A stretch of DNA of 64,000 nt from Caenibius tardaugens NBRC 16725 (GTDB lineage Bacteria > Pseudomonadota > Alphaproteobacteria > Sphingomonadales > Sphingomonadaceae), in the NCBI RefSeq assembly GCF_003860345.1, contig NZ_CP034179.1, positions 558,001 to 622,000 of the forward strand, in the 5' to 3' direction. A program made the position numbers and the translations under genes. Below the pieces are notes generated by a model. The model had not been told where the DNA came from. It worked only from the letters and a program-made list of their open reading frames with translations, and ran no database searches. This document shows, in pieces, positions 5,650 to 37,093 of this stretch; the stretch's first letter is position 1; the number at the start of each line of letters is the position of its first letter.

Positions 5650-7941
5650 TCAGAAATTAACGCCGAAATCGACGCCAAAGGTCCGTGGCACCTGAAAAGT
5701 GCCGATGACGTTGGTGGTCAGATTGCGCGCGAATTCGAGCTTCTGATTGTTGGTCAGATTCTGCACCCAGCCCGACACTTTCACTTTCGCCCCGCCCAGC
5801 GGCAGATCGACCAACGATACCCGGGCATTGACGTCGAACCGCGCCGGCAATGTCGTCAGATCCAGCGTCGCCGCGTTTCTGATCGGATCGGACAGGCGCT
5901 TGTCCTTGTAAAAGCCGTCGAGACGGAACGTGAGATGGCTGCCATTCGCAAATGCCGGTGCATCGTACTGCGCCCCCAGGCTCAGGGTGTTCTTGGGCGC
6001 GAGTGAGTTGACCGGTCCCTTGATCGGATCGGTCGCCAACTTCTGATTCAGATAACCGTAGCTCGCATTCAAAGTGATATTCGATGTCGGTTTGGCGGTC
6101 AGTTCCACTTCGAACCCGTTTTCATGCCCATAAGGGGACGAGAACAGGAACGTGCCGTTGACGGTATCGAAGCCCAGCGTCTGCACATTCTTGCGGCGCG
6201 AAATGAAATAGGCGGCGTTGATGCGCAGCCGGTTATCCAGCAGATCCGCCTTGATACCCGCTTCGTAGCTTTTCACCGTTTCCGGCTTGAAGACCTGGCC
6301 GCCCAGAACCCCGCCCGACAAATAGCCGGTGGCGAAGCGCAGATAGGCCCGCACATTGTTGTTCACAATATAAGTCGCCGTGGCATCGAAATCCCAATGG
6401 TCGAAACTGGCATTGGAAACCTTGGGATCGGCCGCGAACGGAATGATGCCCGCTGCCCGCACCACTTCACGCCGCTTGTCCTTGGTATAGCGGATACCGC
6501 CCGCCAGCTCGAAATGTTCTGCCTTGTACCCAAGGTGCGCATAGGCGGCCATGGACTTGTTGCGGATCGATACGTCCGCGCCCGAGAAATAATCGCTGGG
6601 CACCCCGAAGGCGTTGATCGTATTGCCGATGCCATTGCCCAGCGAAGGAATGATTTCCGGCAGGTGGGTCGGGAACATCGCGCCAATGAAGACGGGATTG
6701 TTGTCGCGCCCGGTTTCCCGGAAATAGAACGCGCCCAACACCCAGTCGAAATTGCCGCTCTTGCCGAGAACCTGCAGTTCCTGCGTGAACTGTTTCTGGT
6801 GGCGATCCTGAATCGAGGAGATGTTGGTGAACGGCAGCCCACCCAGATCATAGGCACCGCCGTCGATATCGTTGCCACCGACGGCTTCATCCATTTTCCG
6901 GAAGCCGGTGATGCTTTTCAGCGTAATCGCCTCATTGAGATCCAGCGCCGCAGTCAGGCTGTGCCCCTGGATCTTCAGATGGGACGGCGACGTCATGTCG
7001 AGCGCGACGGCCTTCTGCCGTTTGGTGCTGGGCGGGACATAGATGCTCGGCGCAGCAGTATAGAAGGGCGGATTGCCCACGCCCGCAACATACCCGGGAT
7101 CGTAGCCGAGCAATTGCTGCGCCAATTGCGTGCTGACCTTGTCTGTATAGTCGAACTTGTAATCGACCTGCAGCGCACCGCCATCAATATGCACGGCAGC
7201 GGCAAAGGCATCGGTGTTTTCCGCACCGAAGCTCTTGGCCGATTTGATCGTGCCGAACGGTTCCACAAAATGGAATGTCCGGCCGGGCGTCAGATTCTTC
7301 ACGTAGCCACGGTTTTCATCGTGCAGATAGGACAAGCGCACACTGACCGGCCCGAACGAGGGGAGGTTCACTGTGACCCCGCCTTTCCGGCGATCGAAAT
7401 TACCGATCGTAGCATCCGCCTTGACGCTGAATTCACCCGAGGGGCGAGACGTGATGAAGTTGATCGCGCCACCCGTCGCATTGCGGCCAAACAATGTGCC
7501 CTGCGGCCCGCGCAACACTTCGACCCTTTCGATATCGGCCAGATCGAAAGCCGTCCCCGCCGGGCGACCGAGATAGACGCCATCGATATAGAGACCGATC
7601 CCGGCGTCCGCCTCGAACTTGAGCGAGCCTGTCGAAACACCGCGCAGGTAGTACTGCGGTGCGCTGGCAGACCCAAACTGACGCTGCACATCCAAATTGG
7701 GAACTGTCTTACCGATATCCCCAAAGCCCTGAATATTCAGCGCTTCCAATTGATCCGCATTGTAGCCGGTCACCGATACCGGAACTGTCTGGGCGCTTTC
7801 TTCCGTGCGCCGCGCAGTCACGACGATATCGCCGATTCCGGCCGATGCGGCACTGGTGCCCGACGTGTTTTGCGCCACTGCGATCTGCGGCACGGCTGTA
7901 GCCAGCATGGAGCCAGCCAAAACCACGAAACGAAAATTCAT
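5650..7941 (-). CDS. TonB-dependent receptor (catabolic type)
   Basis: A 763-residue outer-membrane receptor. It begins with a signal peptide ending near AVAQ, then a TonB box DIVVTARR at about residues 40-47, a plug domain (VPVSVTGYNADQL, GIGLYIDGVYLGRP, VEVLRGPQGTLFGRNATGGAI), and a beta-barrel ending in VNF. The start is ATG 7941; 28 in-frame residues upstream look non-native and lack a signal sequence. In sphingomonads this class imports organic substrates as well as siderophores. It is divergent from an SDR gene, and the shared 258 bp promoter region holds an Lrp-motif candidate, so I place it with the catabolic genes. Substrate unknown. Confidence 0.92.
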   Translation of the reverse strand: MNFRFVVLAGSMLATAVPQIAVAQNTSGTSAASAGIGDIVVTARRTEESAQTVPVSVTGYNADQLEALNIQGFGDIGKTVPNLDVQRQFGSASAPQYYLRGVSTGSLKFEADAGIGLYIDGVYLGRPAGTAFDLADIERVEVLRGPQGTLFGRNATGGAINFITSRPSGEFSVKADATIGNFDRRKGGVTVNLPSFGPVSVRLSYLHDENRGYVKNLTPGRTFHFVEPFGTIKSAKSFGAENTDAFAAAVHIDGGALQVDYKFDYTDKVSTQLAQQLLGYDPGYVAGVGNPPFYTAAPSIYVPPSTKRQKAVALDMTSPSHLKIQGHSLTAALDLNEAITLKSITGFRKMDEAVGGNDIDGGAYDLGGLPFTNISSIQDRHQKQFTQELQVLGKSGNFDWVLGAFYFRETGRDNNPVFIGAMFPTHLPEIIPSLGNGIGNTINAFGVPSDYFSGADVSIRNKSMAAYAHLGYKAEHFELAGGIRYTKDKRREVVRAAGIIPFAADPKVSNASFDHWDFDATATYIVNNNVRAYLRFATGYLSGGVLGGQVFKPETVKSYEAGIKADLLDNRLRINAAYFISRRKNVQTLGFDTVNGTFLFSSPYGHENGFEVELTAKPTSNITLNASYGYLNQKLATDPIKGPVNSLAPKNTLSLGAQYDAPAFANGSHLTFRLDGFYKDKRLSDPIRNAATLDLTTLPARFDVNARVSLVDLPLGGAKVKVSGWVQNLTNNQKLEFARNLTTNVIGTFQVPRTFGVDFGVNF

Positions 7942-8033
7942 ATCGCTCTCCCGAATATGGCGGCGGATTTCCTCCGCATCGTACCAACGCCTAAACTTAC
8001 GACATTTGCACGATTCGCCAAACATATTTTCTA

Positions 8034-8073
8034 CGTATATGTCATTTTACATCTATCATATTGACGCTTTGCG
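8034..8073. promoter_or_regulatory. candidate Lrp-type operator (weaker copy)
   Basis: TTTGCG at 8068-8073, followed by TA, is preceded by CGTATA at 8034-8039, a 4 of 6 match to CGCAAA, giving the same 40 bp outer span seen at 10976 and 17529. The inner text ATCATATT and the downstream TTTCC-CGCA-ATACC are shared with the site at 17529. It lies between the divergent receptor (start 7941) and SDR (start 8200). Confidence 0.4.
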
Positions 8074-8199
8074 TAGTTTCCCGCAAATACCGTGGCATTG
8101 ATGACGCAAAATCGCAGCACGCCGCGCATGGCTGGACTAAACGCGGGAGACTGCGCACCTTAGTGTCGAGCGGGTAGTGAGGGTTCGAAGGAGAGAGTT

Positions 8200-8958
8200 A
8201 TGGATTTTCAGGGGAAAGCTGTGCTCGTCACCGGCGGCGCAAGCGGCATCGGCGCGGCCACGGTGCGTCTGTTCGCCGCCGCTGGCGCGCAAGTCGCGAT
8301 TGCCGATCGCAATGCGCAAGCCGCGCAAGCGCTGGCGAAGGAGCTTCCGGGCGCGATCGCCTGCGGCGTGGACGTGATGAACCCCGACGATTGCCTGGCC
8401 ATGGTCGATACCGTGCACAAGGCGTTCGGCAGGCTCGACTGTGCTTTCAACAACGCCGGAATTACCGAAATCGGACCGTTGAAGGGTGCCCCGGTGCCGG
8501 AAACGCACGATCTTCCGCTGGATGTGTGGCGTCAGGTTCTGGGCGTCGATCTGGACGGCGTGTTCTATTGCCTGCGGGCACAGTTGCCCCTGATGCTCGA
8601 GACTGGTGGCGGCGCCATCGTCAACACCACATCGTTGCAGGCCCACGTCAGCTATCCCCGTACTGCCGCCTATACGGCGGCGAAGCACGGGGTGTTTGGC
8701 CTGACCAAGACCATCGCCAAGGAATACGGCAATCGCAATATCCGCTGCAATGCCGTGTCACCGGGCGTAGTCGACACGCCTTTGACCAACACTGTGATCA
8801 ATCAGCCCGAGTACAAGGATTCGCTGCTCAACACGATCCCGCTCGGCCGCTTTGCCGAACCGGAAGATGTGGCCAAGGCGGTCGTCTGGCTCTGTTCGGA
8901 CGGCGCCGGTTATATCAACGGTACCGTACTGGTTGCAGATGGCGGTTACCTCGCCTGA
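8200..8958 (+). CDS. short-chain dehydrogenase/reductase (classical SDR)
   Basis: A 252-residue NAD(P)-dependent oxidoreductase of the classical SDR family. It has the nucleotide motif TGGASGIG at about residues 12-19, NNAG near 88, Ser in NTTSLQA and the catalytic YTAAK, and the C-terminal NGTVLVADGGYLA. An acidic residue after beta-2 (IADRN) suggests NAD preference. A good ribosome site (AAGGAGAGAG) precedes the ATG. It is divergent from the TonB receptor and followed by a terminator, so it is a single-gene unit. It probably oxidises an alcohol in the catabolic pathway encoded around it; substrate unknown. Confidence 0.9.
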   Translation: MDFQGKAVLVTGGASGIGAATVRLFAAAGAQVAIADRNAQAAQALAKELPGAIACGVDVMNPDDCLAMVDTVHKAFGRLDCAFNNAGITEIGPLKGAPVPETHDLPLDVWRQVLGVDLDGVFYCLRAQLPLMLETGGGAIVNTTSLQAHVSYPRTAAYTAAKHGVFGLTKTIAKEYGNRNIRCNAVSPGVVDTPLTNTVINQPEYKDSLLNTIPLGRFAEPEDVAKAVVWLCSDGAGYINGTVLVADGGYLA

Positions 8959-8975
8959 CACAGGGCGCGTGTGAA

Positions 8976-9015
8976 AAATCCGGGATCGCACTTGGCGACC
9001 CCGGATTTCTATTTT
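8976..9015 (+). terminator. terminator of the SDR gene
   Basis: AAATCCGGG (8976-8984) pairs with CCCGGATTT (9000-9008), with an inner CGC/GCG pairing, followed by CTATTTTG. It begins 17 bp after the SDR stop. The right arm is the first copy of a 17 bp tandem repeat (9000-9033). Confidence 0.75.
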
Positions 9016-9033
9016 GCCCGGATTTCTATTCTG
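9000..9033. repeat. 17 bp tandem repeat on the terminator arm
   Basis: CCCGGATTTCTATTTTG (9000-9016) is followed at once by CCCGGATTTCTATTCTG (9017-9033), 16 of 17 bases identical. Either copy can pair with the left arm at 8976-8984. It lies between convergent genes. Confidence 0.8.
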
Positions 9034-9068
9034 CATCGCGACAGCCCACGCCGGGCTGAATCGCGCTT

Positions 9069-9536
9069 TCACCCGATGTTATACCTGCCATGCGCCGACA
9101 GGTTACCGAACAGATCGTTGGTGATGTACCGTTCCACGAAATGCCATTGGCCATTCCGCTTTTCAAAGCGATCGCGATAGTCGCCAGTGATGATCGGCTG
9201 CAAAGGCAGATCGGGCGCAGCCTGCACCACCAGCACCGTGCTGGTCGCGGTTGCCGCCACATCGCTTTCCGGTTCAACGATCACATTGCAGATCAGATGG
9301 CGCGTACGCGGAATACCATCATAAAGCTGCAGAAAGTCGGAAAACATGCGCGTGACTTCCGCTGCATCGTTGACCACGGGATCATCACGTCCTTCGAAAT
9401 GAACTGTGGCCGAAGCGAACAACTGCCCCATCGCATCCAGTTTCCCGGCATCCAGAAAACGCGGATAGGAATGGATCAGCTTCTGGATCGCCATAAGATC
9501 GACGACCCCGAAACCCGTATTCACCGGATCAACCAT
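9069..9536 (-). CDS. SnoaL-like (NTF2-fold) protein
   Basis: A 155-residue protein of the SnoaL-like / nuclear transport factor 2 superfamily. Typical features are an N-terminal helix pair (AIQKLIHSYPRFLDAG), the strand carrying ATVHFEGRDDP, RHLICNVIVEPE and the final strand GDYRDRFEKRNGQWHFVER. Members include limonene-epoxide hydrolase, ketosteroid isomerase and aromatic hydroxylase small subunits, and many are unassigned enzymes. I start it at ATG 9536, overlapping the COQ4-like gene by 8 bp; a longer start would run further into that gene. It is the third gene of a three-gene minus-strand operon (10922 to 9069). Reaction not determined. Confidence 0.82.
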   Translation of the reverse strand: MVDPVNTGFGVVDLMAIQKLIHSYPRFLDAGKLDAMGQLFASATVHFEGRDDPVVNDAAEVTRMFSDFLQLYDGIPRTRHLICNVIVEPESDVAATATSTVLVVQAAPDLPLQPIITGDYRDRFEKRNGQWHFVERYITNDLFGNLSAHGRYNIG

Positions 9537-10353
9537 ATGCCGCCTCCCAGGTCCAGGCCCAATGCCCTGCCGGAGGGCCATCCTCAAAACCGAATTCCTT
9601 GCGCACATCCTCGATCGAGACGTCGATCCAGTCTTCCCAACGGATCATGAACAGCGGCTTCTTCTGCTTCATGCCCAGCGCGTATCCGCGTGCCGTGCCT
9701 TCCAGCATGGCGGGCACGACTGCGGGATAGTGGCAATTCATCCGCATCAGGCTGGTGGACGACAGGAACATCGGCTGGAATGACAGCATCCCGGCCAGTT
9801 CGGGTGAGGAAAAGTAATTGAAACATGCCACAGTATTGGCGACAATCAGGGATTCTTCACCCACCGGGCTGGGATCGAGACCGGTAACGATATGTTCGAT
9901 ATCGTGGTTCTGTACCCGGCGTTTGTTGAGATATTCGAAATCGTTGCGCGGCTCCCCGCGGAACATGAAATCGATATCGAGTCCGCTTTCCTGAATAAAG
10001 CCACGCACGGCCGCACCAACCGTGCCATCCTTGCAGTGCGACAGGTCGATCTTGTTCCAGTCGGAAACGAAGCGCGCGTCCAGCCATTCGGCAAATTCGG
10101 CGTTGCTGGCCTTCTCCTCGTCCAGCAACGTCATAAGCCGTTCGAAATCCATTTCCTCGGCAATCGCGTTGCCGATTTCCGGCACGAGATAGGCTGCAGG
10201 CAGATCGTGCCCGTTCCGTTTCAGCCCCATCTGGGCATAAATGTCGCGGAACCGCGGATTGTTCAGATAGCGCGAATTGCTGATCAGAATGGACCCTGCC
10301 AGCGGCTCGTTCGCGCCCTTCAGATAATCCGCTTCTTTGCCTTCGATTTTCAT
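9529..10353 (-). CDS. COQ4-like protein in a catabolic operon
   Basis: A 274-residue protein with the COQ4 metal motif HDxxH-x11-E: His150, Asp151, His154 and Glu166 (HDIEHIVTG then GEE). COQ4 proteins act in ubiquinone biosynthesis, where the family has been tied to C1 decarboxylation/hydroxylation of the quinone head group. This copy lies between two SnoaL-like genes in a catabolic, Lrp-motif operon, with no ubiquinone gene nearby, so I infer a specialised paralogue acting on a catabolic intermediate. The start is ATG 10353, with a GGGAGAGG ribosome site upstream. Its stop overlaps the next gene by 8 bp. The family assignment rests on the motif and its exact spacing. Confidence 0.8.
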   Translation of the reverse strand: MKIEGKEADYLKGANEPLAGSILISNSRYLNNPRFRDIYAQMGLKRNGHDLPAAYLVPEIGNAIAEEMDFERLMTLLDEEKASNAEFAEWLDARFVSDWNKIDLSHCKDGTVGAAVRGFIQESGLDIDFMFRGEPRNDFEYLNKRRVQNHDIEHIVTGLDPSPVGEESLIVANTVACFNYFSSPELAGMLSFQPMFLSSTSLMRMNCHYPAVVPAMLEGTARGYALGMKQKKPLFMIRWEDWIDVSIEDVRKEFGFEDGPPAGHWAWTWEAAYG

Positions 10354-10478
10354 GCGTTCAAACCTCTCCCTCGATCCTGTGCGTCAGGATTCGAATCCAT
10401 ACGCGTAGTACAGAATGAGAAATCCCGGCTCAACCGTTCGGGACCGCGAACCGGCCCCGATGTGGTTGCCCGTCAGGA

Positions 10479-10922
10479 TCAGAGCGCTTCATTCTTGAAG
10501 TTCTGCCCAAACGCATCTGCGATAATCATCGGGTTCACGTATTCTTTCCAGAACACGACAATATCGCCTTCAAAACGCAGAATACCCAGATACCTGTTGG
10601 AATAATGCACCCCGGTGGACTGAAGCACCGTGTCCGAATGGTATTCCACGATCAGCGTATCGGGATCGAGCTGGTCGTAAAAGCTGTCGACCTGATGGTG
10701 ATACCCGTCGCAATCCGCCATCCCGCCACGGGACATCTCGATAAAGGCATCACGCCCGACCATTTGTTCGGGAAACCCCTTGATTGGCGGATAAGGCCAT
10801 TCGAACACGGCCTGTTCGTCGACATGGCGGCCGAAAGCGTCGAAATCCTTGCGCCCATATGCATCGATCAGTTCGGCAAAAATGGCGCGCAGCCGCGCTC
10901 TCCTGTCATCCTCGAATCCCAC
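10479..10922 (-). CDS. SnoaL-like (NTF2-fold) protein
   Basis: A 147-residue SnoaL-like protein of the ketosteroid-isomerase/PhzA-B type. The N-terminal helices (IFAELIDAYGRKDFDAFGRHV), the strand EQAVFEWPYPPI, the middle MVGRDAFIEM and the final FEGDIVVFWKEYVNP fit the fold. An Asp-rich patch (YDQLDPDTLIVEYHSD) sits where ligand-binding residues occur in relatives. It is the first gene of the operon that continues into the COQ4-like gene after a 125 bp gap. The Lrp-type element at 10976-11015 lies 54 bp before its start. Possible isomerase, dehydratase or epoxide hydrolase; not assignable from sequence alone. Confidence 0.82.
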   Translation of the reverse strand: MGFEDDRRARLRAIFAELIDAYGRKDFDAFGRHVDEQAVFEWPYPPIKGFPEQMVGRDAFIEMSRGGMADCDGYHHQVDSFYDQLDPDTLIVEYHSDTVLQSTGVHYSNRYLGILRFEGDIVVFWKEYVNPMIIADAFGQNFKNEAL

Positions 10923-10975
10923 TCAAGCCTCCTCTATGCTAAGCACAGATGGCTTCAGAACGCGGGATATGTCAA

Positions 10976-11015
10976 CGCAAAACGGAATATTTACATATCA
11001 AATTATCGCTTTGCG
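10976..11015 (-). promoter_or_regulatory. candidate Lrp-type operator
   Basis: CGCAAA (10976-10981) and TTTGCG (11010-11015) are inverted half-sites with a 28 bp spacer, 40 bp in total. The spacer is AT-rich (ATATCAAATTATCG). It sits between the end of the second Lrp gene and the start of the SnoaL/COQ4 operon. The same arrangement occurs at 12039-12079 and 17529-17568. Confidence 0.5.
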
Positions 11016-11018
11016 TAT

Positions 11019-11486
11019 TCATTGAGCGATAGTCGTCATCCTATAGTCATGCTTGAACATGCGGTGCGTCAGCTCATAACGGATGCGCGCGATCCCGGGG
11101 ATAGGATCGATCGTATCGTGCAGGTAATCCGCCAGATGGGTGGCGCTTCGCACCCAGGTGATCGCCATGATATCCGCACGCCCGATCAGCGAGGCCACGT
11201 AAGTGACTTCCGGCAGGGCAACGAGAGCATCGAGCACGCCCTGCAACGGATAGCTCGCGTCCACATCGATCCAGAGATAGGCGATGACGGAATCGGGAAT
11301 GTGATCGATGTTGGTTACCGCCACGACCTGCATGGCCTTTTCATCCATCAGCCGCTTCAGCCGCAAACGGATCGCCCCTTCGGTAAGCCCGAATTCGCGC
11401 GCAATCTCGCGATTGCTGACGCGCGCATCGCTCGCCAAACGATCGAGCAACCGCCGATCAAGATCGCTGAGTTCGATTTCCCTCAT
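11019..11486 (-). CDS. Lrp/AsnC-family transcriptional regulator (second of a pair)
   Basis: A 155-residue regulator. The N-terminal winged helix-turn-helix (DLDRRLLDRLASDARVSNRE then FGLTEGAIRLRLKRL) is followed by the RAM ligand-binding domain (about 65-150). The family forms dimers to octamers and senses small molecules, often amino acids, but also catabolic effectors. Its start overlaps the stop of the upstream Lrp gene by 4 bp, so the two are coupled and may form hetero-oligomers. Candidate operators flank the pair (10976-11015 and 12039-12079), suggesting autoregulation and control of the neighbouring catabolic genes. Confidence 0.93.
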   Translation of the reverse strand: MREIELSDLDRRLLDRLASDARVSNREIAREFGLTEGAIRLRLKRLMDEKAMQVVAVTNIDHIPDSVIAYLWIDVDASYPLQGVLDALVALPEVTYVASLIGRADIMAITWVRSATHLADYLHDTIDPIPGIARIRYELTHRMFKHDYRMTTIAQ

Positions 11487-11941
11487 TCGAAACGCCCCCA
11501 GGGTTGCACATATTTGACGATGTTCATGGCCAGCGCAGCCTCCACACCGATAACGCCATCGATCTGCGGTATGGTTTGCGTCACAAGCAGGTTCAACGCC
11601 GCCATATCTCGTGCAATAACCTGAATTTCCAGATCATTACGGCCAATAACCGACAGCACGGAGATGACCCCGGGAATATCGACCAGATCGTTCGCAACCT
11701 CGTCGATCGTCCTGCCGCGAATCTTCAGCCCAAGTAGCCCGGTAAAGGGATATCCCATCGAACCGAGATCGAGCTTGGCGACAATCCGCATGGAATCGGA
11801 CTCTTCAAGACGGCGAATGCGCGCCCTGACAGTCGCTTCGGTCAGCCCAACCCTTTGCGCAAGTTCACGGATCGGAACCCGGCCATCATCCCGCAATTCA
11901 GCGATGATCGCCTCGTCGTGTTCATCCAGTTGACGCCTCAA
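11483..11941 (-). CDS. Lrp/AsnC-family transcriptional regulator (first of a pair)
   Basis: A 152-residue regulator with an N-terminal helix-turn-helix (LDEHDEAIIAELRDDGRVP then VGLTEATVRARIRRLEESDSM) and a C-terminal RAM domain with the family pattern VISVLSVIGRNDLEIQV. It is the first gene of a two-gene operon with its paralogue at 11019. The two are clearly different in sequence, so this is not a recent duplication. The start at ATG 11941 is preceded by a GGGG-rich Shine-Dalgarno (AAAGGGGTGGG). The element at 12039-12079 lies about 98 bp upstream and is the likely control site. Confidence 0.93.
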   Translation of the reverse strand: MRRQLDEHDEAIIAELRDDGRVPIRELAQRVGLTEATVRARIRRLEESDSMRIVAKLDLGSMGYPFTGLLGLKIRGRTIDEVANDLVDIPGVISVLSVIGRNDLEIQVIARDMAALNLLVTQTIPQIDGVIGVEAALAMNIVKYVQPWGRFE

Positions 11942-12038
11942 GCACCCACCCCTTTCGCTTGAACGGCGCTATGGCATCACGCCTGTTTTTGCAAACCTGT
12001 AAAACAGCGGAACAATATTGCACAGATGGATGCGAATT

Positions 12039-12079
12039 CGCAAAATGAAAATCCGGATATTTGCCCTTATCGTTTTGCG
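12039..12079 (-). promoter_or_regulatory. candidate Lrp-type operator
   Basis: CGCAAA (12039-12044) and TTTGCG (12074-12079) are inverted half-sites with a 29 bp spacer, one base longer than the copies at 10976 and 17529. It lies upstream of the Lrp pair, in the 208 bp gap before it. Confidence 0.5.
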
Positions 12080-12149
12080 CATCACATAATGGGCAGCACT
12101 GCTACAACTGTGCCGCCTATCCCCTCAGGCAAAAAAACGATCGCATCAA

Positions 12150-13226
12150 TTAAAGCCGTATATGGCGCACCGTGGGGACAGGCGTTTCCTCCGCACGGAC
12201 CCACCGGAGCAGCAGAAATCCTTCGTTATGGCCATGTGTGGTCAGCCAGTTCGGCCGACCCGGATCCTGATGCGCGACAACGATTGTCGCAGTGCCATCA
12301 TCGTTCAGCTCTACGGTACCATTGTTGATGCAGGCCGGAACATAACGGTAATCGAGCGATTCCATCCACCAGTTGTTGACCTGGATATTCCAGAATTCGC
12401 ACGTCGGTATCGGGGTGTCGATCAGCAAGGCCTCGCCCGGTTCCAGCTTCCAGTATCCGTGGACATAGAAGATCGCCGGGTCGCCTCCGGCCTTCTGGAA
12501 CATCTCCTGCCCCCAATCGCGCATGTCATTGGGGTGCGACATGAACATCTTCGACCAGTCGGCAAACAGTTTCGAACTGTTCACAACAAAATCGGCGGCG
12601 CCCGTCAGCCGCGCGCGCAGTGCATCGGGATCAAGCGGATCGGGCATCGCCGGCCCTTCGCTGATCCGTTCGATGGCAAATGCCGCGGGCACTTCGCTGC
12701 GGCGGTCGATGAAGGTTTGCCGCACTTGCAGGATATTGGAATCCGCCGCCAGCGGGAGCCACGCCGAGCCATCGTCCGGCTTTGTCTGGCTCGCGATGAT
12801 GACGAAGTCGCCATTGGCGTCCGCCCCGAACTCATCCCCCTGCAATTCCCCGGTTGACGCCATGGTGCCGTCGATCGCGTAACGGTTGGCTTTCGAACCG
12901 ATGCTGAGATAGCTGACCGAGCCGATATTCCCGGTCAGCCGATAGGTGCGATCGCCGCCGATCGTGGCGGACAGATAGAGGTTATCGGGATTGTCCCCGC
13001 CCAGTTTCGCGGTTTCATGACTGGGCCGCACGAAAGTGGGGAAATCCGGATCGCCCCCCTCCAGATAGATTTCCAGACCCAGGCGGATCAGGCGGCTGAG
13101 ATAGCGTGCACCCTCCGCCTGATCGAACGCCGCCACGGGCGCCCCTTCGGCGGTCAGCGTGGCGCGCGCTTCGCCCAACCGCGCGGTAAACGCATCCCAG
13201 ACATCTGCACCCGTCGTCGTGTTCAT
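12150..13226 (-). CDS. DUF1214 domain-containing protein
   Basis: A 358-residue protein with a C-terminal DUF1214 domain, marked by GEALLIDTPIPTCEFWNIQ, NWWMESLDYR and HQDPGRPNWLTTHGHNEGF. DUF1214 has a beta-sandwich-like fold; its function is not known, although it often pairs with DUF1254. Here there is no DUF1254 half and no signal peptide, so it is probably cytoplasmic. It is the last gene of the OYE-MFS-SDR-DUF1214 operon (17382 to 12150), 22 bp after the SDR. Two other proteins in the window share its architecture (35108 and 38351), which argues for a recurrent role in this catabolic system. Confidence 0.88.
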   Translation of the reverse strand: MNTTTGADVWDAFTARLGEARATLTAEGAPVAAFDQAEGARYLSRLIRLGLEIYLEGGDPDFPTFVRPSHETAKLGGDNPDNLYLSATIGGDRTYRLTGNIGSVSYLSIGSKANRYAIDGTMASTGELQGDEFGADANGDFVIIASQTKPDDGSAWLPLAADSNILQVRQTFIDRRSEVPAAFAIERISEGPAMPDPLDPDALRARLTGAADFVVNSSKLFADWSKMFMSHPNDMRDWGQEMFQKAGGDPAIFYVHGYWKLEPGEALLIDTPIPTCEFWNIQVNNWWMESLDYRYVPACINNGTVELNDDGTATIVVAHQDPGRPNWLTTHGHNEGFLLLRWVRAEETPVPTVRHIRL

Positions 13227-13248
13227 ATCCCTGCTCCCTTGTGCCTCA

Positions 13249-14010
13249 TCACCCGGTCAGTTGCCCGCCATCGAGTATCAAAACCGTGCCCGTGGCATAC
13301 CGTGCCTCATCGCTTGCCAGATAGGCAATGGCTGCGGCGATTTCGGCCGGGGTGCAGGCATCCCGATCGGTGAGCTTGGGCATGTTGCGCCCTGCAGCCT
13401 CGGTAAAAATGGCAGGGTCGATGCCACCTGCGGCCGTGGTCTTTTCGTGCATCGGCGTGTTGACGCCGCCCGGTGCAATGGCGTTCACCCGGATGCCATG
13501 GCGCGCCCATTCCAGCGACGTGCTCTTCGTCAGGGCAATCACGCCCGCCTTGGAAATGCCATAGGCGGAGGTGCCATATACCGGATGCAGACCGCTGGCC
13601 GAAGCGACATTGACAATGCAGCCCTTTGCGGCGCTGAGCGGTGCAAACGCGGCCTGTGTCAGATAAAATGGTCCCGACAGATTGATATCCAACGTACGCT
13701 GCCATGCGCCCAGATCGGTTTCCTCGATCCGGCCCCAGGTCATGATCCCGGCAATATTCAGCAGGATATCGATCCCACCCATTGCCGCCTGCGCATCGCC
13801 AACCAGCTTCAGCGCGGCAGCGGGATCGCGCGCGTCATAGGCAAACGCATGGCCGCCAAGCCTGTCGGCCATGGCCTGCGCCCCCGCAACATCGACATCC
13901 CCGATTGCGACAGTTGCTCCTTCGGATGCGAAACGCTCCGCAGTGGCCTGCCCGATGCCCGATGCCCCGCCTGTCAGCAACACGCGCCTGCCGGCAAACC
14001 GCTGTCCCAT
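13249..14010 (-). CDS. short-chain dehydrogenase/reductase (classical SDR)
   Basis: A 253-residue classical SDR with TGGASGIG at about residues 13-20, NIAG in place of NNAG near 87, Ser in NVASASG and the catalytic YGISK, and a C-terminal TGTVLILDGGQLTG. The acidic end of beta-2 (IGDVD) suggests NAD(H). It starts one base after the MFS gene stops and precedes a DUF1214 gene, so it belongs to the OYE operon. It probably acts on a hydroxyl or keto intermediate of the same pathway as the OYE-type reductase. Substrate unknown. Confidence 0.9.
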   Translation of the reverse strand: MGQRFAGRRVLLTGGASGIGQATAERFASEGATVAIGDVDVAGAQAMADRLGGHAFAYDARDPAAALKLVGDAQAAMGGIDILLNIAGIMTWGRIEETDLGAWQRTLDINLSGPFYLTQAAFAPLSAAKGCIVNVASASGLHPVYGTSAYGISKAGVIALTKSTSLEWARHGIRVNAIAPGGVNTPMHEKTTAAGGIDPAIFTEAAGRNMPKLTDRDACTPAEIAAAIAYLASDEARYATGTVLILDGGQLTG

Positions 14011-14011
14011 A

Positions 14012-15223
14012 TCAGTCCCGTTCCTTCTCGATCAGATCATGTCGATTGCGCAACGCCACCCATGCGGCGACCGCGAGAAACACACACCCCGCTGCCGTGA
14101 ACGCACCCAGCGCCCCAAGATGGCGGCGCAAGGGATCGAAAATCAGCGGATTGAGGAATTGCCCGGCGTTGAGAGCGCTCACGATCAGGCCCATGGCGAG
14201 CGCATGCACCGTGGGCGACACCCGGCGGAACAGCAGCGATGCAGTGGCCGGTTCCGACATGCCTGCGCCGATCCCCACCAGCGCGCAGCCGAGGAAAATC
14301 ATCCAGATTTCCGATGAAAGGCCGATCAGCACGAGGCCCGCCCCCATGCTCAGGGCATCGATCGCCAGAAAACCATGCAAGCCGATCCAGCGCCGCAGGA
14401 AACCGAAGGCCCAGGCGGAAACCATCGCCACAAACGATGTCGCGGCGATGACCACGCCAATCGTCTCGGCACTGCCAATGCCCTTGTGGGCCAGCACGAA
14501 CCCGGCCTGAATCGGCGGGGTGAACATACCCAGCGTCAACAGGATCAGCAGCGCATAATAGGGCCACACGCGCGCCAGTTCGGGCGCGGGCTTTGCTTCC
14601 GTCCGGTCCACCGGCACATGACCCGGCGCCATATCGCGGATCACGAACCACGAAACGAACAAGACGGGAATGCCCAGCAGATAGAGCGCAAAGGGCATCT
14701 GCCAGCCGCCGATATCGACCAGCCTGCCGCCAAAGATCAACGCCACACCTGCCAGAAGCGAAGAGACCGACGTGGCATAGCCGAGCACGCGTTCGCGCGT
14801 GTGCCCCGAGAAATGATCACCAATCAGCCCGAGGCAGGATGTCAGCACACCCCCGCCCGCGATACCCAGCAACAGACGCAGCACGATCAGGGCCTCGCGG
14901 CTTTCTGTCAGCAGGACGCCCGCGCCACCGATAATATAGAGCACCAGCGATACCAGCAGCACCGCGCGCTGCCCCACATGTCCGGCCAGCCAGCCCGCAA
15001 CAGGCGCCGATGCGATCAGCATGGCAGCCGGCAATGTCATCACGATCTGCGAGAAAAGCTGACTGCCCGCATCGGCCCCGAAATGCTGCGCCATCGCGAC
15101 CAGCGCCGGGGCCGCCGCCATCGGAATCAACGATACCAACGCGGGCCCGGCAATACAGACAGCCGCCACCAGCCAGCCCGCATTTCTGTCTGCGGTGGCC
15201 CCGTTATCAAGCCCGGCACGCAT
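14012..15223 (-). CDS. MFS transporter
   Basis: A 403-residue major facilitator with about 12 membrane helices and an MFS-like loop (GWLAGHVGQRAVLLVSL). The start is ATG 15223, 11 bp after the OYE gene stops; an in-frame upstream ATG would overlap that gene by 67 bp and adds an Arg/His-rich stretch that is not native. The family moves small molecules by proton coupling across the inner membrane. It is co-transcribed with the OYE-type reductase, SDR and DUF1214 genes, so it probably takes up the pathway substrate or exports an intermediate. A related MFS gene lies at 33873, also directly followed by a DUF1214 gene. Confidence 0.9.
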   Translation of the reverse strand: MRAGLDNGATADRNAGWLVAAVCIAGPALVSLIPMAAAPALVAMAQHFGADAGSQLFSQIVMTLPAAMLIASAPVAGWLAGHVGQRAVLLVSLVLYIIGGAGVLLTESREALIVLRLLLGIAGGGVLTSCLGLIGDHFSGHTRERVLGYATSVSSLLAGVALIFGGRLVDIGGWQMPFALYLLGIPVLFVSWFVIRDMAPGHVPVDRTEAKPAPELARVWPYYALLILLTLGMFTPPIQAGFVLAHKGIGSAETIGVVIAATSFVAMVSAWAFGFLRRWIGLHGFLAIDALSMGAGLVLIGLSSEIWMIFLGCALVGIGAGMSEPATASLLFRRVSPTVHALAMGLIVSALNAGQFLNPLIFDPLRRHLGALGAFTAAGCVFLAVAAWVALRNRHDLIEKERD

Positions 15224-15234
15224 ATGGCGTGCGC

Positions 15235-17382
15235 TCAGATCGCCTGAGTGGCGAGCGTTGCGTCGCGCATCGCCCCTTCGATGTAACCGACCCCGGTGCA
15301 ATCGCCCACGCGATGCACCGTGAACCCCGCCGCCGCGAGCGCATCGGCGAGCGTTTCGTCCCCGGTCGCGCCTTTCGCCACGATCACCGTATCCGCGCCG
15401 ATCATGCGTTCCTGCCCGCCGTCATTGGTATAACGCACGGTGTGGTCGCCAATGCTGAAATCACTGGCATTGGTCAGCATGGCAACGCCCAGTTCGTGGC
15501 ATTCGTCGATCGCGCGAAAACGGCGGACCAGCGGGATACCCCGGCCGACACGCGATGATTCCTCGAGAACGGTGACTTTGCGCCCCCGTTTTGCGAGAAA
15601 TTCCGCCAGTTCCAGCCCAACCAGTTCCCCACCGATAATGACCACACGCTTGCCCAGCGGCATCCAGACTTTCGATCCCTGACGCAGCAGGGCGAGCTTG
15701 CCCGTAAGCCCCGTCAGATTGCCCAATCGCATCGCCACCCGCGTGGGCCGCGTGGTCTTGTCGGAAATCCGGTCCAGTTCACGGCCCAGCACAAGACTGC
15801 GCATATCGTCGCCGGAAAACACGAAATCGCGATCCGCGCCCGGGATCGGCGGCATCGTCCGCTTCGCGCCAGTCGCCACGACGATCTCGTCAACCTGCAG
15901 TTCCCGCGCCAGTTCCGGCGTGACTTTCGTGCCCAGCCGCACTTCGACCCGACCATCGGTGACCTGCCGCTTCAACCAATCCACGATGCCCTGGTTGGGC
16001 GCATAGGCAACCGATGCGAATTGCGCGGTGCCGCCCAGCCGCATCGTCGTTTCACACAGGGTCACCTTGTGGCCCTTGTCCGCCAGCAGACGCGCAGCCT
16101 CCATGCCGCCGGGGCCACCACCAACCACCAGAACTTTCTTGTGCCGTTCGGGCGCAGCGGGGCGCCGTTCCGTTTCGAACCCGGTCATCGGATTGACCGC
16201 GCACATCACGTGGCTGGAATTGAAAATCGCGCTGATACAGGTGTAGCAATAGACGCAGGGCCGCACCTCTTCAGGCGTACCGGCAGCCAGCTTGTTAGGC
16301 AGGTGCGGATCGGCGAGCAACTTGCGCCCCATCGTCACGAAATCGAGCTTGCCCTGCGCAATGAACCGGTCCGCATCTTCCGGCTCGATCCGCCCCGGGC
16401 AAATCACCGGGACCGAAACCGCCGCCTTGATCGCCGCGGCATTGCTGACGAAACAATTGGGAATGTCCGTCGCGTGGCCGGTGGAATAGGTGCGTCCGTA
16501 ATTGGAATCCCCATGCGCGCTGACGTGTATGGCATCGACACCGGCTTCCTCGGCCAGTTGCGCCGTGCGGATCGCGTCCTGCAAGGTGATGCCATAATCC
16601 ATCAGGAATTCCTGGCTGTCGAAGCGCATCCACACGGGATAGTCCGGACCGACCGTTTCGCGCACGGCGCGGATCGTGCGAGTCAACAAACGCGCGCGGT
16701 TTTCAATCGAACCGCCGTAATTGTCGGTGCGCTGGTTATAGGCCGGGGACAGGAAGGTGGAGAAGATATAGCCGTGGCCGGCATGCAACTCGACGGCATC
16801 GATGCCTGCACGCTTCGCCCGGTCGGCCGCTGCGGCGAACAGGTTCACGATGCGATCGATGCTCTCTTCGGTATCCAGCGTATCGTACTTGATTTCGCCC
16901 ATGGTAGCGTAGGGTTCGAAGAACTTCGCCTGCTCTTCCTCAAGCATGACGTCGACGAAATCGCCGCTGTCCTTCGAGGCCTTGGGCACGGATGGGCACG
17001 CCAGCGGCCGCCCGTCGAGCATGTCGGTCATCGCCGTGATGCCAGCGTGGTGCAACTGCACGGCAAGCTTGGCCCCATGCGCATGCACTTCATCAGCCAG
17101 CGCCTTCAGACCGGGAATAAACCGGTCATCCGAAATCGCTTCCTGCCGCCAGTTGCTGGCACCCACGGGGAACCCGACAGAAACCGATCCCATCGTGACC
17201 AGTGCCGCGCCCCCTTTGGCACGCTCCGCATAATATGTGCGCAGACGTTCTCCAACGGAGCCGTCTTCTTCCGCAAGGTTCGATCCCATCGGCGAGAAGA
17301 AGATGCGGTTGCGCAATTCCAGCTGGTTGATCCGACCGGGCGACAGCAGGTGCGGAAAGCTCTTTTTCTTGAACACGCCCAT
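15235..17382 (-). CDS. OYE-type NADH:flavin oxidoreductase with FeS and FAD domains (FadH-like)
   Basis: A 715-residue protein of the 2,4-dienoyl-CoA reductase / trimethylamine dehydrogenase family. The N-terminal TIM barrel (1-365) binds FMN. A 4Fe-4S cluster is predicted at Cys376, Cys379, Cys382 and Cys394 (C-x2-C-x2-C-x11-C). A dinucleotide-binding segment follows (VLVVGGGPGGMEAA, about 417-430), and a second one (VVIIGGELVGLELAEF) lies near 585. Relatives reduce conjugated C=C bonds or demethylate amines; the His-His pair at 110-111 and the active-site GHGY loop fit an enone reductase. First gene of a four-gene operon, with an Lrp-type element 147 bp upstream. Likely acts on an alpha,beta-unsaturated catabolic intermediate. 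Confidence 0.92.
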   Translation of the reverse strand: MGVFKKKSFPHLLSPGRINQLELRNRIFFSPMGSNLAEEDGSVGERLRTYYAERAKGGAALVTMGSVSVGFPVGASNWRQEAISDDRFIPGLKALADEVHAHGAKLAVQLHHAGITAMTDMLDGRPLACPSVPKASKDSGDFVDVMLEEEQAKFFEPYATMGEIKYDTLDTEESIDRIVNLFAAAADRAKRAGIDAVELHAGHGYIFSTFLSPAYNQRTDNYGGSIENRARLLTRTIRAVRETVGPDYPVWMRFDSQEFLMDYGITLQDAIRTAQLAEEAGVDAIHVSAHGDSNYGRTYSTGHATDIPNCFVSNAAAIKAAVSVPVICPGRIEPEDADRFIAQGKLDFVTMGRKLLADPHLPNKLAAGTPEEVRPCVYCYTCISAIFNSSHVMCAVNPMTGFETERRPAAPERHKKVLVVGGGPGGMEAARLLADKGHKVTLCETTMRLGGTAQFASVAYAPNQGIVDWLKRQVTDGRVEVRLGTKVTPELARELQVDEIVVATGAKRTMPPIPGADRDFVFSGDDMRSLVLGRELDRISDKTTRPTRVAMRLGNLTGLTGKLALLRQGSKVWMPLGKRVVIIGGELVGLELAEFLAKRGRKVTVLEESSRVGRGIPLVRRFRAIDECHELGVAMLTNASDFSIGDHTVRYTNDGGQERMIGADTVIVAKGATGDETLADALAAAGFTVHRVGDCTGVGYIEGAMRDATLATQAI

Positions 17383-17528
17383 CTTTCAGGCTCCTTTCGA
17401 GACCTTGTGCACCGGCAACGCCGCAACACGACTCCGCATCCGACCCTCCCTGAGATATTCTTCAGCCAGCTTATGGAAAGCATCGACTGAATTCAACCTT
17501 AATTGCGCATATATCGCGCATATTACTA

Positions 17529-17568
17529 CGCAAAGAGATATAGATTATCTCATATCAATCATATTGCG
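17529..17568 (-). promoter_or_regulatory. candidate Lrp-type operator
   Basis: CGCAAA (17529-17534) and ATTGCG (17563-17568) form inverted half-sites with the same 40 bp span as at 10976. Further TGCGCA-like half-sites lie just before it (17503-17520). The site is upstream of the OYE operon start at 17382. The flank ATTGCGTATTTCC-CAGATACC closely matches the region at 8068-8091. Confidence 0.45.
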
Positions 17569-17600
17569 TATTTCCGCAGATACCAATCCGCCACGCAACA

Positions 17601-17630
17601 AGCCCGGAGACAGCAAAGCTGCCCCCGGGC
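17601..17630 (-). terminator. probable terminator of the ADH gene
   Basis: GCCCGG (17602-17607) pairs with CCGGGC (17625-17630), with an inner CAGC/GCTG pairing around an AAA loop. On the minus strand the stem is followed by TTGTTGCG. It lies 30 bp after the stop of the zinc-type dehydrogenase. Confidence 0.6.
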
Positions 17631-17660
17631 ATATGCACCTTTGAAAAAGGAGAAGTAACG

Positions 17661-18695
17661 TCAGGCGGCGGCGTGCTGCGGAATTTCCAGCATCACTTTC
17701 ACCGCTTCGGGCATACCCTGCTTTTCGAAAGCCTCGGCAATCTCGCTCAATTGATAGGAGTGCGAGATCAGGCTTTTGCGATCCACCTGCCCACGCTGCA
17801 TCATCTCCAGCGCCTCGACCAGTTCCTCGGGGGCATAGCCATTCGAACCGATGATCACCGGCTCCTTCTTGATGACATAGCTGAAATCGATCAGCATCTT
17901 GTCTTCGTAAGCCCCGAAACACACGATCCGCCCGCCGCGATTGGCAATGCAGCGCAGCGCGATTTCCAGCGGTGGCGGCCCCGGAATATGCGGAATATAC
18001 CCGGCACAATCGATCACCACGTCGATTTTGGCGGACTTGCCGCGATAATCGTCTTCTCCGCCACACAGGGCCACGGCGGCATCGAAGATATCGGCATTGC
18101 GCGGGTTGATCGTATCGCTCGCCCCGACGTCCAGCGCGGCCTGCAAGCGCACGTCCTGCACATCGATGGCGATCACCCTGCCCACATCCGGACATTTGGC
18201 GCGAATGGCCTGTATGACGCCAAGACCGATAATCCCGACGCCGAACACCATGACATTTTCGCCCGGCTTGATCTCCGCCTTGCGAACCATCTGCAACCCG
18301 TCCGCCATCGGTTCGGTAGTCGCCGCTTCTGCAAAGCTCACCCCTTCTGGGATGCGGACAAGCTGGAACGGGTTGACCGGCACTGTCACGAACTGCGCCA
18401 TGCCGCCGCCATAGCCGGTGACGCCAACGACCTTCTCGCCGACGGCCCAGCCTTCGACCCCTTCGCCCAGTTCCGCGATCCGCCCGGCGAATTCGTGACC
18501 AGGCACATCATAGCCTTCGGGCGTTTTGCGAACGAGCGAATGGCGATAGCTGTTGTTACGGTACATGTGCAGGTCCGATCCGCAAATGCCGCAAGCCTCC
18601 ACCGCGATCAGAACTTCCCCCGGCGCGGGCACAGGCCTGGTCGCGTCATCGCGGGCCTCGATCTTGCCGGGATCAATATAATTGGCTGATTGCAT
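17661..18695 (-). CDS. zinc-dependent alcohol dehydrogenase family protein
   Basis: A 344-residue medium-chain dehydrogenase of the threonine/sorbitol dehydrogenase type. Catalytic zinc ligands are visible in ACGICGSD and GHEFAG, and the Rossmann motif is VFGVGIIGLGV near 160-170. The usual four-cysteine structural zinc lobe is absent (the region reads KVVGVTGYGGG). I chose ATG 18695 because GGGAG lies 8 bases before it; a GTG 15 bases upstream is part of that ribosome site. It follows the LLM flavoenzyme gene by 26 bp, forming a two-gene operon. It likely oxidises an alcohol made by that monooxygenase branch. Confidence 0.9.
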   Translation of the reverse strand: MQSANYIDPGKIEARDDATRPVPAPGEVLIAVEACGICGSDLHMYRNNSYRHSLVRKTPEGYDVPGHEFAGRIAELGEGVEGWAVGEKVVGVTGYGGGMAQFVTVPVNPFQLVRIPEGVSFAEAATTEPMADGLQMVRKAEIKPGENVMVFGVGIIGLGVIQAIRAKCPDVGRVIAIDVQDVRLQAALDVGASDTINPRNADIFDAAVALCGGEDDYRGKSAKIDVVIDCAGYIPHIPGPPPLEIALRCIANRGGRIVCFGAYEDKMLIDFSYVIKKEPVIIGSNGYAPEELVEALEMMQRGQVDRKSLISHSYQLSEIAEAFEKQGMPEAVKVMLEIPQHAAA

Positions 18696-20046: not shown

Positions 20047-20655
20047 TTGGCCAGCCACACCAGCGAAGAGACAGAAATACGGGCAGGCGTGGGTCGGCCA
20101 AGAAGCGGCGAAATTGACGAACAGATTGTCGCTGCCGCACGCGCGCTGCTGGCCGAAGGTGGGTACGAAGCCATGACCTTCGAAGCGATCGGCAAGCTCA
20201 CCGGCATTGGACGCCCCACGATCTACCGCCGGTGGCCCAGCAAGGCGCATCTCGCCGCGGCTATCGCGTACGGCAAGAACAGGCCCCTGCCCCGGACCGA
20301 TGGCGATCTGCGCATGCAGATCCAGGCACTGGTCGATCAGGTGGCGCGGCAATACAGCCATCCCGAAATTGCGGCTGCAGCGATCGGACTGATCAATACC
20401 TTCAACAGCGACGATGGCTTACGCAGCGAACTTCACAAACCGGCTGAAGATGATGCGCGCAGGCAAATGCACGAAATCGTGGCTGCGGGCAAAGCGGATG
20501 GCAGCGTTTGCCCCGATGCCGACGCCGATATCCTGTTCGATATGATCGTGGGCACGCTCATCTTCCGCATCATGTTCAGCTCGAAAGAAATACCTGCGGA
20601 TCACATCGGCAAGCTTGTCGACCATTTGTGTCGCGCACTCACCCAGCCAGCCTGA
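20047..20655 (+). CDS. TetR-family transcriptional regulator (TTG start)
   Basis: A 202-residue regulator. The N-terminal helix-turn-helix (EQIVAAARALLAEGGYEAMTF then IGKLTGIGRPTIYRRWPSK) is about residues 25-70, followed by a helical ligand domain. It starts with TTG at 20047, supported by AAGGAG (20035-20040) 6 bases upstream; the codon after it is GCC. The neighbouring tetR at 24649 uses the same unusual layout. It is divergent from the LLM/ADH operon and probably represses it through the palindrome at 19938-19953, with release by a pathway compound. It converges on the GMC gene with a 14 bp gap. Confidence 0.92.
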   Translation: MASHTSEETEIRAGVGRPRSGEIDEQIVAAARALLAEGGYEAMTFEAIGKLTGIGRPTIYRRWPSKAHLAAAIAYGKNRPLPRTDGDLRMQIQALVDQVARQYSHPEIAAAAIGLINTFNSDDGLRSELHKPAEDDARRQMHEIVAAGKADGSVCPDADADILFDMIVGTLIFRIMFSSKEIPADHIGKLVDHLCRALTQPA

Positions 20656-26333: not shown

Positions 26334-26644
26334 ATCGCACCTTGTGTAATTTTGGGGCACTGCCACCCGCACAAGGACGCGGTGCCCCCGTTCACTATCC
26401 TCGAATCGCCGCGATTGCAGCAGACCAGGACAATGCAGGCACACAAAAAGTGGCGGTTTTCCGCATTTTTGGAGCGCGATAGACGCACGAGAGTGTCGTG
26501 AACGACACAATCCACAAGATTCGCAAAATCATTGCCACAACGTATGCGCGCGCCCTCTGGACGGCCCGATTTTATCCGATATATTGACCTCAATACAAAA
26601 ATGTACCTGCGTCCAAAAACGCACATTTAATGGGAGGGAGCATA
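26334..26644. other. 311 bp intergenic region before the TonB receptor
   Basis: It holds a hairpin after the SDR stop (GGGGCAC 26354-26360 with GTGCCCC 26382-26388, no T tract), the palindrome at 26493-26508, and an AT-rich stretch (26570-26605) with TTGACC at 26584 that may be the receptor promoter. The receptor ribosome site GGGAGGGAG lies at 26632-26640. I see no small gene. Confidence 0.6.
26493..26508 (+). promoter_or_regulatory. TetR-type palindrome upstream of the TonB receptor
   Basis: GTGTCGT (26493-26499) and ACGACAC (26502-26508) are perfect 7 bp inverted arms around GA, about 137 bp before the receptor start. The 7-2-7 geometry matches the sites at 19938 and 36413, although the sequences differ. 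Confidence 0.45.
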
Positions 26645-36562: not shown

Positions 36563-37093
36563 ATGACATATGCACAGGATGAAGTCGTAGATACCGTCGA
36601 ACGCCTGATCGAAGCGTTCAAGAAGGCTGAGGAAACCAACACCTGGAGTTGGCTGGCGGACGAATTCTATCACACCGATGCCGTGTACGATTGTCAGTAC
36701 GGCGGGGTTATGCCGGTCGTTGCCAATGGCGTCGATGAAATCCGCGCGACGCATTACGGGCGCGATATGGCCACCGGTTGGGAAGGCTGGTCATTCCCCT
36801 ATGTCGGATATGCCGTGAACGGGAATGAAATCGTCACCCACTGGCTCAATCGCGGCCCCAGCCTGCGGCCTGACGGCACACATTATGACACCCATGGCGT
36901 CTCGTTCATCACTTATGGCGGAAATGGGAAATTCATCCGCCAGACCGACATGTTCGATATCGGACACCAGATGGTGCTGTGCGACGAACTGGACGATGCC
37001 GGCCTGCTTTCCGAACAACTGAAGCGCGAATGGGTGGAACCGATGAAGGCCCGGATCGCCGCCGCCATGGCACCGAAAGCCAACGCGGCGTGA
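36563..37093 (+). CDS. SnoaL-like (NTF2-fold) protein
   Basis: A 176-residue SnoaL-like protein. The helical start (VVDTVERLIEAFKKAEETNTW), the strand EFYHTDAVYDCQYGG, the mid-region EIRATHYGRDM and the closing strands (GNGKFIRQTDMFDIGHQM) fit the fold. It is longer than typical by a C-terminal helix. I chose the second of two adjacent ATGs (36563) because GGAG is then 6 bases away; ATG 36560 is possible. Its stop overlaps the GTG start of the sulfotransferase gene by 4 bp. The enzyme could be an isomerase, dehydratase or epoxide hydrolase; not decidable from sequence. Confidence 0.82.
   Translation: MTYAQDEVVDTVERLIEAFKKAEETNTWSWLADEFYHTDAVYDCQYGGVMPVVANGVDEIRATHYGRDMATGWEGWSFPYVGYAVNGNEIVTHWLNRGPSLRPDGTHYDTHGVSFITYGGNGKFIRQTDMFDIGHQMVLCDELDDAGLLSEQLKREWVEPMKARIAAAMAPKANAA

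Follow-up and report, generated by a model that had tools for sequence, protein, structure and literature searches.

A conserved inverted operator tied to a tandem Lrp/AsnC regulator pair, its predicted reader, in sphingomonad gene clusters

Results

An inverted element shared by neighbouring promoters

In the 64,000-bp stretch of DNA analysed here, positions 558001-622000 of the 4,358,096-bp single-contig genome NZ_CP034179.1 (hereafter the window), two Lrp/AsnC regulator genes lie in tandem on the reverse strand. The upstream gene, lrpA (11483..11941), encodes 152 aa and the downstream gene, lrpB (11019..11486), 155 aa, and their open reading frames (ORFs) overlap by 4 bp, as noted in a first-pass annotation of the sequence. 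Both proteins combine an N-terminal AsnC-type helix-turn-helix (HTH) domain (PF13404) with a C-terminal Lrp/AsnC (RAM) effector domain (PF01037), all above cut-off, and their relatives in the Protein Data Bank are PH1519, PH0140 and a protein also called LrpA. The first-pass annotation had further proposed that one inverted element, CGCAAA-N28/29-TTTGCG, precedes the SnoaL/Coq4-like genes, the Lrp pair itself and the genes starting with an OYE-type flavoenzyme, with a weaker copy before a TonB-dependent receptor gene, and all four copies are present. The short form is exact at 10976-11015 (N28) and 12039-12079 (N29), whereas the site at 17529 has N28 and a single mismatch, its right half reading ATTGCG. 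The window contains no exact match to CGCAAAN{26,32}TTTGCG other than the first two of these sites; shuffled sequences averaged 0.11 matches, and 1 of 100 reached two.

The element extends to TACGCAAA-N28-TTTGCGTA, spanning 44 bp with an AT-rich middle, and one site has N29. On the reverse strand, operator A (10974..11017; 1/16 letters mismatched) stands before the SnoaL_2 and Coq4-like genes, operator B (12037..12081; N29, mismatches 2/16) before the Lrp pair, 95 bp from the TTG start of lrpA, and operator C (17527..17570; mismatches 1/16) before the OYE-MFS-SDR2-DUF1214 genes. Operator D (8032..8075, not assigned to a strand) is the weaker copy and lies between the divergent genes for the TonB-dependent receptor and an SDR oxidoreductase, SDR1. 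Once the half-site is extended, its spacing is exact as well (TACGTATA-N28-TTTGCGTA, mismatches 2/16).

The genes next to these operators are, on the reverse strand, the SnoaL_2-like gene directly downstream of operator A (10479..10922; PF12680), followed by the SnoaL_4-like and Coq4-like genes (9069..10353; PF13577, PF05019), the DUF1214, SDR2, MFS and OYE-type genes downstream of operator C (12150..17382; PF06742, PF13561, PF07690, PF00724) and the TonB-dependent receptor gene (5650..7941, with an internal ATG used as start; PF00593, PF07715), and, on the forward strand, SDR1 (8200..8958; PF13561). Two further half-site-like stretches, CCGCAAATAC and GACGCAAAATCGC, occur between operator D and SDR1 (8080-8115), with spacings that match neither of the layouts described in this study. 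None of the four other TonB-dependent receptor genes in the window (26630-29158, 55019-57394, 58829-61042 and 61849-63849) has an N28 operator at two mismatches or fewer.

Distribution of the element in the genome

The first-pass annotation had put forward a genome-wide scan of the short motif as a check on random occurrence. CGCAAAN{20,40}TTTGCG occurs at 20 places in the genome compared to 9 for the reversed control, about twice the control count, so the short form is largely background and was dropped as a genome-wide marker. It is the extended form that departs from chance: its 16 letters with N28 and at most two mismatches were found at 4 places in 4.36 Mb, versus 1.15 expected for random sequence with equal base use. 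Operators A, C and D are three of the four and lie within 9.6 kb of the window, where 0.0025 would be expected (Poisson P 2.6e-9). This P value is not independent, because the consensus and the N28 spacing were chosen after inspection of the relatives, and it likewise assumes equal base frequencies. The whole-genome scans of the extended form covered N28, and the N29 spacing of site B lies outside them.

The fourth place, operator E, is a perfect 16/16 copy 1.64 Mb away (genome positions 2213238-2213281; L102:8239-8282), for which 0.001 would be expected. Like operator D, it sits in a divergent promoter region between an SDR gene and a second TonB-receptor gene, and enoyl-CoA hydratase, SDR and glyoxalase-family genes are close by, making this a probable second regulon locus.

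Co-occurrence of the element and the regulator pair

To see how the element is distributed in the family, a sample of 397 genomes, drawn from a larger group, was scanned for N28 sites with at most one mismatch. This yielded 11 sites in exactly five genomes (3, 4, 1, 1 and 2 sites), all of which carry the orthologous Lrp pair (hypergeometric P 1.2e-11); these five are the genomes with a close LrpB orthologue (69-100% identity, E ≤2e-69). There was no such site in the other 392 genomes, including ones with other Lrp pairs, and the reversed control gave six single matches in six other genomes. Ten of the 11 sites precede regulon genes or belong to the second TonB locus. The eleventh (G061, position 1296901) is GC-rich, falls outside the cluster and is unexplained; it may be a chance match.

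The plasmid pNL2 of Novosphingobium aromaticivorans DSM 12444 was located by protein search and not used to derive the motif, and thus provides a held-out check; the pair of this strain is encoded by SARO_RS19550 and SARO_RS19545. It contains five sites at two mismatches or fewer, four with N28 and one with N29, and none at the 38 other gaps between 10 and 49. They are found before the OYE-type gene, lrpA (16/16 letters), an NTF2/SnoaL gene and the TonB gene, and at the annotated start of a sulfotransferase gene inside the regulon, with which the site overlaps by 7 bp. A sulfotransferase-family gene and a second DUF1214 gene also occur elsewhere in the window (36979-38361 and 40119-41135). A blind census of 6-mer dyads by gap (gaps 10-49; 13 core stretches from 7 genomes) returned three frames of the element as its top entries, present in 10, 8 and 8 stretches, with the next dyad in 5.

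Chance AT-rich inverted repeats, or a general promoter or terminator structure, could in principle produce such sites, and the roughly twofold excess of CGCAAA-N20..40-TTTGCG over the reversed control, as well as an N29 place at 2424174 that resembles a hairpin, would agree with this. Yet the extended element is restricted to genomes that bear the pair, holds its spacing across all species and repeatedly stands in front of the same genes, which renders this explanation highly improbable. We conclude that the elements form a genuine, conserved family of operators tied to the cluster with the Lrp pair, and that their reader can be predicted.

Another regulator, such as the TetR protein encoded at 20047, a different Lrp paralogue or an unlinked factor, might read the elements, the pair merely being part of the cluster. 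The TetR gene is close by in the window and has homologues in L056 and L105, the sites go along with the entire cluster, and the half-site is common to other Lrp pairs. What argues against this is that on pNL2, with its five sites, the Lrp pair represents the sole annotated regulators among 29 listed features (in a gene table that is incomplete by its own description), and that genomes with other Lrp pairs and not this one have no site at one mismatch or fewer. We therefore consider a different reader improbable. Because of the co-occurrence in 5/5 genomes and the pNL2 sites, LrpA/LrpB very probably reads the element; in choosing the pair as the predicted reader, we rely on the pNL2 result and on the link of the half-site to other Lrp pairs.

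The operators follow their genes

When the genes were tracked in orthologous loci, the site between lrpB and the SnoaL2 gene was found in 8/8 genomes with the orthologous pair (the L046 contig stops short of SnoaL2), and so was the site in the OYE promoter, at two mismatches or fewer. A site upstream of lrpA is present in seven of the eight orthologous loci; the one in L047 is weak (N29, mismatches 3/16), and none was found in L046. The TonB/SDR1 region contains a site in six of the seven orthologous genomes for which any of the region is available (L046 is too short), the exception being L047, in which the 387 bp preceding SDR1 are free of sites and the TonB gene lies outside the sequence examined. 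In G084, the OYE and TonB genes have retained their sites on a different contig, separated from the pair by at least 385 kb, and in the fragmented assembly G295 the TonB gene is on another contig, with its site. G295 also has a site directly upstream of the DUF1214 gene (L105:5139-5182), which in the window follows the OYE gene in one gene run; thus, where the DUF1214 gene stands apart, it carries a site of its own. In L058 and L103 the site overlaps the start of the longest possible ORF of the OYE or TonB gene; translation probably begins at a codon further inside.

The end of operator A runs into a -35-like hexamer, TTGACA (10970..10975, reverse strand, read in the sequence), the first two letters of which are common with the operator end, and 51 bp separate the operator end from the GTG start of the SnoaL_2 gene. 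This arrangement is conserved: the TTGACA shares operator-end letters in all seven SnoaL2-side loci, two letters in six of them and one in L056, and two again in pNL2, and the SnoaL2 start codon follows after 46-51 bp in five of the seven (in L106 the distance was measured to a later codon, and the L046 contig lacks the gene). No good -10 hexamer was seen by eye before SnoaL2, and a scan of 7700-18000 for sigma-70-type promoters found 4, compared to 4.4 in shuffled sequences, hence no excess. Since the operator runs into the TTGACA without a good -10, regulation at this promoter is probably by activation.

Anatomy of the half-site

A census of 60 halves from 30 sites, many of them orthologous, defined the half-site as TACGCAAA, with G4 in 60/60, followed by the weaker letters C10 (34/60), G11 (42/60) and A14 (39/60) and an AT-rich stretch at positions 14-18. 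Letters from position 9 onward were not part of the search, and C10, G11 and A14 are therefore enriched independently of it. Position 7 may be the centre of an imperfect mirror, as suggested by the spaced pairs C3G4 and C10G11 (ACGC-AAA-rCG partial symmetry). If this pseudo-dyad is the centre of a dimer, each operator has two centres separated by 31 bp, or about three helical turns. Together with the fixed N28/N29 spacing, which is clear in every species, such a geometry would fit two dimer sites approximately three turns apart, and the octamer wrapping put forward in the first-pass annotation would not be required.

LrpA and LrpB as probable lasting partners

All 20 LrpB matches and 28 of the 29 LrpA matches belong to tandem pairs. 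Of the 42 candidate pair loci, 41 were resolved as a same-strand pair, L041 being left out owing to an over-long ORF call; the 41 include L155 and L157, which were fetched because of their sites, and a few near-identical species. The genes overlap by 4 or 16 bp in 29/41 pairs. The A and B chains form two clades (support 0.998) with 0/82 sequences misplaced, the A and B distances correlate in a mirror-tree comparison with r 0.948 (maximum 0.258 in 1000 permutations), and the clade of the window is monophyletic in both the A and the B tree (support 0.999 and 0.994, respectively). The clean split and the co-divergence in 41 tandem pairs suggest a lasting partnership, which lends indirect support to the first-pass idea that the two proteins act as a unit.

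The two chains differ in where they are conserved. Between the window clade and the paralogue pairs, LrpB shows 56.5% identity in the HTH domain and 20.4% in the effector domain, whereas the corresponding values for LrpA are 37.3% and 29.4%. For the recognition helix, the identities of A and B are 73.2 and 76.1% relative to the sister pairs, and 56.4 and 63.3% relative to the paralogues. From the domain conservation we propose that LrpB is the main reading head, or specificity subunit, and LrpA its partner.

It is also conceivable that LrpA and LrpB form separate homo-oligomers that share or divide the operators, without any heteromer. Both proteins have an intact HTH and effector domain, and the recognition helix is fairly well kept in both; moreover, the genus has a single Lrp gene with an everted site (see below), and L021 contains a solitary LrpA homologue. 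Against this stand the tandem arrangement of nearly all matches, the divergence of the two chains in step, and the looser constraint on the HTH domain, taken as a whole, in A compared to B, which suits a partner role. On balance, we regard separate homo-oligomers as rather unlikely, although clearly less so than a different reader.

The half-site occurs everted in related pairs

The same half-site is found with sister pairs (LrpB 46-52% identity) and paralogue pairs in an everted layout, TTGCGT-N20-ACGCAA. In sister loci (n=17) there were 10 everted matches at gap 20 versus a mean of 0.76 per gap, and in paralogue loci (n=17, two of them chosen by site) 20 versus a mean of 1.02. Counting the paralogue-pair loci that were chosen by protein, thus leaving out L155 and L157, 10/15 have TTGCGT-N20-ACGCAA at one mismatch or fewer (one of these loci, L147, was delimited so as to include a known site), and 5/15 have no everted site, among them the second pair of this genome. 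A scan of 20 genomes for the everted form (16 letters, at most two mismatches) gave 26 places in the 12 sister-pair genomes versus 11 in the reversed control, 8 versus 0 in G000, G133 and G189, and 0 versus 1 in five genomes where LrpA/LrpB searches found no related pair, a moderate genome-wide excess. Two distant tandem pairs, in metagenome-assembled genomes of Acidobacteria (L049) and Rhodospirillales (L050), have no N28 site at three mismatches or fewer and no everted gap-20 site at one or fewer. With the centre at position 7, as deduced from the inverted sites, the everted layout likewise places the half-site centres 31 bp apart.

The second tandem Lrp pair of this genome (L142:7262-8225) has no everted site in the surrounding 16 kb. 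An inverted ACGCAT-N31-TTGCGT (L142:15846; L171:222), kept in a congener, is located upstream of an SDR gene about 8 kb from this pair. In the paralogue loci, inverted gap 31 gave 5 matches versus a mean of 0.59 per gap; upon inspection, two of these are one element kept in two congeners and the others look unrelated. In G061, the lrpA gene of another tandem pair is preceded by a long dyad of a different kind, AAATGCGC-N35-GCGCATTT (L121, about -218).

A further everted site, TTCGCGTA-N18-TACGCAAA, stands just ahead of a single Lrp gene at position 374106 of the genome and is kept in three congeners (L141:7984-8017; L144:7274, relative to the homologous start; L145:2688). This looks like autoregulation of an unpaired Lrp. 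We had considered the asymmetry of the half-site as proof of a heteromer, and dropped this argument with the finding of a single Lrp gene with an upstream everted site.

Discussion

Judged from the sequence data, the elements described here are very probably the operators of a small uptake and oxidation regulon, read by the LrpA/LrpB pair that is encoded within it. In the mechanism that we propose, each half (TACGC-AAA-rCG) would be the contact of one Lrp dimer, so that two dimers would occupy the same DNA face at a distance of about 31 bp, or three turns, with the AT-rich middle bent or looped. The HTH of LrpB would read the fixed half-site, and LrpA would act as a dedicated partner, probably in a hetero-oligomer, that adds effector sensing. 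The complex would probably activate transcription at the SnoaL promoter and exert feedback at its own promoter, and the most plausible ligand would be the substrate or an early intermediate.

Several observations weigh against this model or parts of it. At up to three mismatches, the extended N28 scan of the genome returned 15 places versus 14 in the control, which is background level. Co-occurrence ties the sites to the whole gene cluster rather than to the pair alone, and does not on its own suffice to identify the pair as the reader. The site upstream of lrpA is weak in the window and in L047, and absent in L046. With regard to the geometry, each half is an incomplete mirror, enrichment of the outer CG in the everted sites is weak (21/132 halves), and the spacing alone cannot separate two dimers from a tetramer or an octamer. 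Since the centre was derived from the inverted sites and the everted outer CG is weak, we hold the 31-bp distance shared by both layouts to be suggestive. As for the partnership, the mirror-tree permutation leaves shared species history in, the LrpA homologue at L021:1498-1974 (46% identity) has no neighbouring lrpB and is the sole exception among the 29, the recognition helix is nearly as conserved in A as in B, which weakens the idea that B alone reads the site, and the single Lrp gene with an everted site indicates that a pair is not needed to read the half-site.

Known Lrp systems provide partial precedents; the statements below reflect the passages of the cited papers that were covered. 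In archaeal Lrp, two or three helical turns between dimer centres have been observed, and in archaeal and bacterial multi-site Lrp operators separate dimer sites are aligned on one DNA face (PMC2995911), as proposed here. The half-site of our operators has a different sequence, each half is strongly lopsided, and related pairs use it in either orientation, with N28 when inverted and N20 when everted. Ss-LrpB of Sulfolobus solfataricus binds regularly spaced sites cooperatively with one dimer per 15-bp site, wraps the DNA and activates neighbouring metabolic genes; in contrast to the pair described here, it acts as one regulator on a symmetrical consensus of 15 bp, TTGCAAAATTTGCAA, and no tandem partner is described for it in the covered passages (PMC4046817). 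Co-assembly of different Lrp-type proteins has been shown in vitro for the FL11/DM1 hetero-octamer of Pyrococcus horikoshii, although DM1 is a stand-alone effector (RAM) domain, whereas LrpA and LrpB each contain an HTH and are the products of two overlapping genes (PMC2995911). In the siroheme decarboxylase of Desulfovibrio desulfuricans, AsnC-related domains of two related genes form a heterodimeric barrel, but this is an enzyme and no operator is involved (PMC4835899). A further case is the bile-salt cluster of Sphingobium sp. Chol11, of the same bacterial family, in which two contiguous Lrp/AsnC genes lie by steroid-degradation genes and for which the authors proposed cooperative or differential regulation (PMC12882949, 2026). 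We liken this pair to LrpA/LrpB by description, not by sequence, and the covered passages describe no operator, regulon or evolutionary pairing for it.

The substrate of the regulon is probably hydrophobic, and possibly steroid- or terpenoid-like, a guess from what the genes encode and from the likely host. Novosphingobium (now Caenibius) tardaugens NBRC 16725 is an estradiol degrader (PMC6424214, in the part covered), and the strain of the window is probably such a steroid degrader. The cluster genes could not be matched to the locus tags of the published estradiol, testosterone and cholate transcriptomes in the passages covered.

More broadly, the sequences raise the possibility, which we put forward tentatively and with less than even confidence, of a large two-chain Lrp family in sphingomonads, its chains duplicated and passed on together, in which LrpB would be a nearly fixed reading head and LrpA a variable sensing partner. 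Its lopsided dimer sites would lie three turns apart, everted (TTGCGT-N20-ACGCAA) in many pairs and inverted (ACGCAA-N30-TTGCGT) in the clade of the window, and the difference in layout would insulate the regulons from each other. Two dimers at such a spacing are already known for Lrp; the conserved pairing and the flipped layout look new. Our literature search returned nothing about this operator, judged by listings and with most subscription journals out of reach, so that its absence from print is not established.

The element gives a concrete operator and regulon for catabolic clusters of sphingomonads, among them N. aromaticivorans and a strain that is very probably a model estrogen degrader. 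Should the pair be an obligate heteromer, the Lrp/AsnC regulators would no longer be limited to homo-oligomers and would include a design of two paralogous chains, and the flipped layout would illustrate how paralogous regulators with a common half-site may escape cross-talk. The two layouts, everted and inverted, also constitute a natural experiment on how Lrp oligomers hold DNA.

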